This document shows positions 8,800 to 13,185 of a stretch of DNA of 42,891 nt, in pieces. Position 1 is the first letter of the stretch; each line of letters opens with the position of its first letter. A program made the position numbers and the translations under genes. Origin of the DNA: a virus; the IMG/VR virus record IMGVR_UViG_3300047408_000130, positions 1 through 42,891 of that record. One strand, 5' to 3'. The notes beneath the pieces were generated by a model, which was given only the letters and a program-made list of their open reading frames with translations, had not been told where the DNA came from and made no database searches.

Positions 8800-9012
8800 A
8801 TGATCGGCAATCTTTACGAGACGACAGAGGCAACCCTAGTCGAGGCACACAAGAGCGGCGCGGCTTATTGGACGCGTAATCGCACGCTGGCAGCAACGGA
8901 AGACCGGCTTTCGTCACTGGCGCGCTCCATTGGCTACCATGGCGAGGAAAACGACGCTTGGCTGGCCGGATATTACGGCGCCAAGCGCCGCGACCAAAAT
9001 GCACGCATCTAG
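8800..9012 (+). CDS. Small hypothetical protein
   Basis: 70 aa from ATG 8800, preceded by CCGAAAGGCAACTCCA, the ribosome-site pattern typical of this operon. Sequence pattern: TTEATLVEAHKSGAAYW, then a helical end EENDAWLAGYYGAKRRDQNA. The N-terminal part, with a possible helix-turn-helix, is not conclusive. The stop TAG (9010-9012) touches the first base of the hammerhead ribozyme, so ribosomes finishing here would cover its stem II. Confidence 0.65.
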   Translation: MIGNLYETTEATLVEAHKSGAAYWTRNRTLAATEDRLSSLARSIGYHGEENDAWLAGYYGAKRRDQNARI

Positions 9013-9063
9013 GACGAAACGGGGGCAACCCCGTCGCATGGTTAGGCCATGCCTGATGAGTCC
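9012..9063 (+). ncRNA. Type II hammerhead self-cleaving ribozyme
   Basis: All parts of a hammerhead in the type II (open stem II) order are present. Stem II strand GGAC (9012-9015); core GAAA (9016-9019); stem III ACGGGG/CCCCGT (9019-9024, 9029-9034) closed by a GCAA tetraloop; cleavage triplet GTC with C17 at 9035; stem I GCATGG/CCATGC (9036-9041, 9047-9052) with loop TTAGG; core CTGATGA (9053-9059); stem II strand GTCC (9060-9063). Every stem is fully paired and every invariant core base is correct. Predicted self-cleavage is between 9035 and 9036. It lies between two genes of one operon, 20 bases before the next ATG, so it may split the transcript and separate expression of the two halves. 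Confidence 0.95.
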
Positions 9064-9082
9064 AATCCGAAAGGCAAATCCA

Positions 9083-9304
9083 ATGAAACTTTTCGATCAA
9101 CCCCTGACCGTCACTCTCACAACGGCACAATGGCTGGACGTGCAAGTCGCACTGTCGGACGCATGGGCGCACAATGAGCGGCATTTCCCATGCATCGCGC
9201 GCGAGAATATCGCGCTCAAACATGTGCTCGCTGCACAGACGCGAACGGCCATCGATGCGGCAGCTGCACAAGTCGATGAGATGCGGGCCGCACGCGCGGC
9301 TTAG
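9083..9304 (+). CDS. Small hypothetical protein directly after the ribozyme
   Basis: 73 aa from ATG 9083, with CCGAAAGG at 9067-9074. Pattern: LTVTLTTAQWLDVQVALSDA, then HVLAAQTRTAIDAAAAQVDE, a helix pair with an alanine-rich end. After ribozyme cleavage its mRNA would start with stem I and the CUGAUGA strand and keep its ribosome site. Function unknown; no family recognised. Confidence 0.65.
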   Translation: MKLFDQPLTVTLTTAQWLDVQVALSDAWAHNERHFPCIARENIALKHVLAAQTRTAIDAAAAQVDEMRAARAA

Positions 9305-9315
9305 TTTCCCCAATC

Positions 9316-9392
9316 GGGCACGCCGCAAACGTGCCCATCTGCCGCTTAGATGCTGCCGCAAACAGCATCACACGCGCCGCCGCAAACGGCGC
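9316..9392 (+). repeat. Three tandem hairpins with identical CCGCAAA loops
   Basis: GGGCACG/CGTGCCC (9316-9336), GATGCTG/CAGCATC (9349-9369) and GCGCCG/CGGCGC (9374-9392). Each stem is perfectly paired and each loop is CCGCAAA. The stems differ completely while the loop is constant. A weaker hairpin with loop GCCGCTT (9336-9352) lies between the first two. They fill the gap before the GP88-like gene. No U-tract follows, so they are not standard terminators. Confidence 0.85.
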
Positions 9393-10213: not shown

Positions 10214-10238
10214 TGCGGCATGCCGCAAACGTGCCGCA
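10214..10238 (+). repeat. Hairpin with CCGCAAA loop after GP88 gene
   Basis: TGCGGCATG pairs with CGTGCCGCA (nine pairs, one T-G) around the loop CCGCAAA. It starts seven bases after the GP88 stop. It belongs to the same family as 9316-9392. Confidence 0.8.
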
Positions 10239-13168: not shown

Positions 13169-13185
13169 GCCCGCCGCAAACGGGT
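13169..13185 (+). repeat. Hairpin with CCGCAAA loop before the 13206 gene
   Basis: GCCCG pairs with CGGGT (one G-T pair) around the loop CCGCAAA. It is the weakest stem of the family. The usual CTCGAAAGGAAC ribosome site follows it. Confidence 0.65.

Follow-up and report, generated by a model that had tools for sequence, protein, structure and literature searches.

Compact type II hammerhead ribozymes placed against upstream stop codons in phage genomes

We identified a complete type II hammerhead ribozyme at positions 9012-9063 (+ strand) of a 43-kb tailed-phage record, which we refer to as the window (42,891 nucleotides, analysed at full length). The ribozyme is one member of a compact type II subtype that has a 4-bp stem II and a near-invariant A/U pair and lacks a pseudoknot between loop I and the 3' tail. 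The novelty lies at the level of this family: its members contact the stop codon of the upstream gene more tightly than other intergenic hairpins do, and some have a five-base AUCAG tail. As judged from sequence and comparison, the window copy is probably a cis-acting ribozyme that would split polycistronic phage mRNA into hairpin-capped messages.

Results

A complete hammerhead between two co-directional genes

The window has terminase, portal, major head, RecE, RecT, and integrase genes. Features of the ribozyme locus are listed here with their basis; L120 and L132 are two contigs from close relatives.

8800..9012, +: upstream ORF, 70-aa orphan with a GAAAGG ribosome-binding site, ends in TAG (ORF analysis)
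9010..9012, +: TAG stop codon, in which A9011 is the conserved A next to stem II on its 5' side and G9012 opens stem II
9012..9063, +: type II hammerhead ribozyme (motif, fold, chance scan, covariance model)
9012..9015 and 9060..9063, +: stem II, 4 bp, GGAC with GUCC (sequence)
9016..9018, +: core GAA, G12 A13 A14 (sequence)
A9019-G9024 and C9029-U9034, +: stem III, 6 bp, ACGGGG with CCCCGU, including the required A-U pair (sequence; one compensatory pair in L132)
9025-9028, +: stem III loop, GCAA tetraloop (sequence)
9035, +: C17, with predicted cleavage after it (core alignment; C in 171/182 relatives listed)
G9036-G9041 and C9047-C9052, +: stem I, 6 bp, GCAUGG with CCAUGC (sequence; one compensatory pair in L132)
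9042-9046, +: stem I loop, UUAGG (sequence)
9042, +: U at +7 from the cut, predicted to make a trans-Hoogsteen contact with A9011 (168/170 relatives listed)
9053..9059, +: core CUGAUGA (sequence)
9069..9074, +: GAAAGG ribosome-binding site of the downstream gene (same leader form before ATG 8800)
9083..9304, +: downstream gene, 73 aa, function not assigned (82-95% identical in L120 and L132)

All core bases are present (CUGAUGA, GAAA, and UH with the A15.1-U16.1 pair), as are three perfect stems, and the topology is that of type II, with loops closing stems I and III and stem II open. The initial annotation had described these elements correctly, including the GCAA tetraloop in stem III and the 5-base stem I loop. 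It had also called the open-stem-II order rare, which is wrong, because hammerheads of this type are common among bacteria and phages (PMC3088659). As it had noted, the ribozyme lies between two co-directional genes and the upstream stop codon touches stem II: the upstream ORF ends in TAG, so G9012 serves as the final base of this stop as well as the first base of stem II. We found no relatives of the protein encoded by this ORF, and no Pfam or PHROG matches; we counted its orphan status against the self-cleavage explanation.

The minimum free energy (MFE) fold of 9007-9068 is the hammerhead structure (-25.5 kcal/mol, z -2.8). By equilibrium folding, the probability of stem II depends on context: it is 0.68-0.90 in 8950-9100 and 8980-9080, 0.23 in 9000-9075, and 0.10 in 8900-9150. 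Longer-range folding can thus compete with stem II in these models, a point that we also counted against self-cleavage. The 5' product tail of the predicted cut folds at -11.6 kcal/mol. Cleavage after C9035 with hairpin-ended products, as originally proposed, is a prediction well supported by sequence and comparison.

The motif is not a product of chance

A scan of 40 Mb of random sequence with the dinucleotide content of the window returned 0 matches, and a motif scan of the window itself found no second hammerhead on either strand. We built a covariance model, R2, from 39 other phage hammerheads with the window copy left out. This independent model scores the window motif at 64.4 bits (E 1.9e-14), and the copies in L132 and L120 at 56.5 and 55.2 bits, respectively. 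An alignment of 40 sequences (A1), whose rows were picked for having stems, which qualifies the covariation seen in it, has covariation in all three stems, with 164 cells changed on both sides versus 43.6 in shuffles.

The initial annotation had proposed an Infernal search with the Rfam type II model and had named a miss as refuting. No Rfam hammerhead matched in the window, even with lax thresholds on 121 bases, and the motif falls below the 37-bit gathering cut-off of RF02276 (Hammerhead_II). We do not take this miss as a refutation: RF02276 recovers 3/66 sister motifs in the contigs tested and misses the other 63/66, so the negative reflects a sensitivity gap of the Rfam model.

A family of compact phage hammerheads

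A wide search pattern, in which only GAC/GTC of stem II, GAAA, GTH, and CTGATGA were fixed, matched at least 119 stretches of viral contigs. A narrower pattern matched at least 119 stretches in viral contigs versus 16 in 257 Gb of prokaryote genomes. Stems I and III, which lie outside the pattern, are both present in 116/118 distinct narrow matches listed, where shuffling gives an expectation of 0.45. Together with the random-sequence scan, this led us to reject a chance origin.

We assembled a family set of 182 distinct viral-contig sequences with a 4-bp stem II among the matches listed; the frequency of GGAC/GTCC in it partly follows from the search pattern, while that of the A at -1, the U at +7, the stems, the tails, and the stop codons does not. 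Among the matches listed, an A stands just 5' of stem II in 172/182, the cleavage-site base is C in 171/182, and loop I is mostly 5-6 nt. Among those with a loop I of 4-8 nt, 168/170 have both the U seven bases after the cut and the A 5' of stem II. The window copy has this arrangement of a minimal A-U hammerhead, with U9042 at +7 and A9011 adjoining stem II at its outer end. A loop I-3' tail pseudoknot belongs to the published type II consensus, whereas in the family such pairing is not enriched (8 runs of at least 4 bp versus 10.9 expected, among 170 listed), and we rejected it as a family feature. In the window, UUAGG and the tail AAUCCG could form only GG/CC, 2 bp, short of the published pseudoknot of at least 4 bp. 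Because the A/U pair is present in nearly all members and loop I-tail pairing is not enriched, we infer that the usual pseudoknot is absent and replaced by a single A-U trans-Hoogsteen contact, which in the window copy would be a tertiary contact between A9011 and U9042.

Family ribozymes occur repeatedly in some phages. Among the matches listed, the hammerheads of multi-copy loci lie on one strand in 30/31 loci, with a median spacing of 544 nt, roughly one per gene. The largest cluster of downstream genes, in L070 and 12 similar loci, encodes DUF932 proteins; serine recombinases, GP88, and DUF6011 proteins are also encoded beside family ribozymes. No DNA match to the window or to two multi-copy loci was found among the named phages of INPHARED. 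Identical hammerheads occur in L136 (three), L137 (three), and L147 (one), with the assembly labels Phycicoccus, Streptomyces, and Eggerthellaceae, respectively, and probably come from a common contaminating phage. A contig that has a GP88 gene in common with the window carries a pseudoknotted type II hammerhead (L129:7199-7255), with loop I UAGCU, tail AGCUA, and almost no stem II. The published phage hammerhead of PaP3, which has a variant core, gave only a weak 13-bit match (45438-45478, - strand); hence, we rejected it as a member of the compact subtype.

Stop codons are placed at the 5' edge of stem II

Among the matches listed, the upstream stop codon ends within -5 to +3 of stem II in 109/175, versus 3.2% of random co-directional positions. 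The offsets in these 175 peak at 0 (37, of which 33 are TAG in the exact register of the window), at -1 (29, as TAA or TGA), and at -3 (24). A stricter ORF length left 146 cases for comparison with other hairpins. The stop codon lies within -5 to +3 in 103/146 ribozymes listed, versus 14/135 terminator-like hairpins (Fisher p 3e-26) and 4/84 other intergenic hairpins (Fisher p 8e-25); these controls are imperfect because ORF calls are simple heuristics and terminators, which keep away from the stop codon (median -24) where the ribozymes do not, may avoid stops for reasons of their own. Among the matches listed, the gene end runs past the first bases of stem II in 1/146, and the next start codon is farther away and more loosely spaced, mostly at 11-31 nt. 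The placement is far too regular for chance. Contact with the stop codon recurs across the family and is not an accident of the window locus.

Some members have an AUCAG tail

The five bases after stem II are AUCAG in 27/182 of the matches listed, where base chance predicts 0.18, an excess of about 150-fold. Together with the preceding C, AUCAG can pair with the core CUGAUG to give a hairpin of 6 bp with the loop AGUC; the predicted MFE structure of nearly all 3' products of members with the tail contains this hairpin. Folding thus suggests that the tail can rearrange the 3' product so that the core is buried. The 27 members fall in 25 upstream and 18 downstream sequence clusters, and the tail is kept in L174, where stem II is GGUC/GACC. 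Examples of AUCAG loci are L091:4464-4518, L070, and L174. We rejected such refolding for the window copy, whose tail AAUCCG allows only a weak version with one mismatch. A search of the main text of open-licence papers found no description of the tail.

The ribozyme stays with the downstream gene in close relatives

L120 and L132, whose portal proteins are 95-97% identical to that of the window, keep the ribozyme directly 5' of the same 73-aa gene. In L132, one stem III pair changes from G-C to C-G and one stem I pair from U-A to C-G, so that both stems are kept by compensatory change. Loop III of L120 differs from that of the window. In both relatives a single additional U separates CUGAUGA from stem II; it may slow their ribozymes, and we counted it, too, against self-cleavage. 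The sequence upstream of the ribozyme differs among the three: L132 has a different upstream gene with its TAA flush with stem II, the upstream reading frame of L120 continues through the ribozyme, and the stretch of homology between the window and L120 begins exactly at TAG. The motif is absent from the more distant portal relatives searched, some of which are fragments. Thus, the ribozyme was gained in the lineage of the window, L120, and L132, and has stayed with the downstream gene.

Other RNA elements occur in these contigs. In L132, another gene carries at its end a degenerate sequence resembling the 5' half of a hammerhead (TAGAACGAAACGG, L132:3490-3560), possibly a decayed copy. In the window, five mostly intergenic + strand hairpins (9316-9336, 9349-9369, 9374-9392, 10214-10238, and 13169-13185) have in common a 7-nt loop, CCGCAAA, closed by G-C, with stems that differ. 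L120 and L132 have these hairpins too, with stem differences that are compensatory (GATGCTG/CAGCATC versus GACGTTG/CAACGTC), and the other portal relatives have hardly any. They may be an RNA element with no assigned role, possibly a protein-binding site.

Discussion

We infer the self-cleavage activity of the window copy, and the fate of its products, from its structure and its relatives. In the mechanism that we consider probable, polycistronic phage mRNA would be cut after C9035 co-transcriptionally by the ribozyme itself. The 5' fragment would end 23 nt past the stop codon in the stem III hairpin with a 2',3'-cyclic phosphate, and the 3' fragment would carry a 5'-OH and the stem I hairpin at its extreme 5' end, 47 nt before the start codon at 9083. 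With the stop codon on the 5' edge of the ribozyme, translation of the upstream gene would be complete before the ribozyme is reached, which would give a minimal 3' UTR and keep ribosomes out of the fold. Against this explanation, a simple cutter would need no stop codon so near, and terminators and other hairpins are not so placed.

In the early region of phage T7, intergenic cuts by RNase III split a polycistronic message into mRNAs with hairpin ends. The predicted outcome here is alike, with phage polycistronic mRNA cut between genes and hairpin-ended messages formed. The cutter of T7 is a host protein, whereas here the RNA would be its own cutter and the new ends would be a cyclic phosphate and a 5'-OH; separate hairpin-capped messages would be obtained without a host nuclease.

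The placement of the stop codon can be read in more than one way. It is quite possible, if short of probable, that it reflects packing only: the conserved A-G at the 5' edge would end a stop codon through mutation and pressure for a short genome, with no coupling to translation. This accounts for the placement and is compatible with self-cleavage. The stops are those that A(-1) and G(+1) allow, almost always TAG at offset 0 (33/37 of the matches listed) and TAA or TGA at -1; yet other intergenic hairpins in similar phage contigs are not packed against stop codons, and an offset of -3 (TAACA, TGACA) gains nothing over -2. A ribosome terminating at TAG 9010-9012 would cover the 5' strand of stem II and the GAA core, and the cut might then happen only when termination is rare and so report on upstream translation. 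We find this gating by the ribosome, which the initial annotation had proposed, doubtful. The excess of nearby stops over both hairpin controls speaks for it, as do the wide berth that terminators give the stop codon and the looser spacing of the next start, and gating would be compatible with the placement. On the other hand, any stop in about -10 to +3 would serve, and the peaks are sharp at 0, -1, and -3; about 30% of the members listed have no such stop; and the upstream frame of L120 extends across the ribozyme. Hammerheads also fold and cut fast relative to translation of a gene, so a delay is expected rather than a switch. A simpler account, in which translation has to end before the ribozyme and A-G doubles as part of the stop, explains the peaks at 0 and -1 at least as well.

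A broader and rather unlikely proposal is that a widespread family of phage hammerheads is fused to stops so that termination would time the cut, and that AUCAG refolding in some of them would bury the core and make the cut irreversible. It is very improbable that the window copy is an inactive relic, a decayed or chance hammerhead without function: L120 and L132 do have the inserted U next to the core, and L132 has the degenerate half upstream, but the core and stems of the window copy are perfect, the changes in L132 are compensatory, and chance is excluded. Self-cleavage of the polycistronic message is the reading that we favor.

Hammerheads are known in phages, as the initial annotation said, and type II among them has been published. 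Perreault et al. 2011 (PMC3088659) described type II hammerheads in bacteria and prophages, flanking prophage genes; phage hammerheads cleave in vitro and in E. coli, 14/18 consensus hammerheads tested were active, and processing of long phage transcripts by hammerheads was already proposed. Our family is like the published type II (PMC3088659; RF02276) in its core, open stem II topology, and repeats between phage genes, and unlike it in its 4-bp stem II and near-invariant A/U pair; RF02276 recovers few of its members. The main text of PMC3088659 does not mention stop codons, and we found no link between hammerheads and stop codons in the main text of open-licence papers.

One A-U trans-Hoogsteen contact is reported to improve the activity of a minimal hammerhead (O'Rourke, Estell and Scott 2015, as cited in PMC9217987). 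The family resembles the designed minimal hammerheads described there in having U at the seventh position past the cut, with an A where stem II ends. In the designed ribozymes, which act in trans, a GUGA loop closes stem II (PMC9217987), whereas stem II of the window copy is open, with the A immediately 5' of it; in the family this A frequently belongs to a stop codon.

Most hammerheads of this class escape annotation when the current Rfam model is used. A 2017 review (PMC6155905) regarded the role of hammerheads in prokaryotes and their phages as an open question. With the placement of stop codons, a natural minimal hammerhead with what would be a single contact, and a tail that may switch the 3' product off, this question becomes directly testable.
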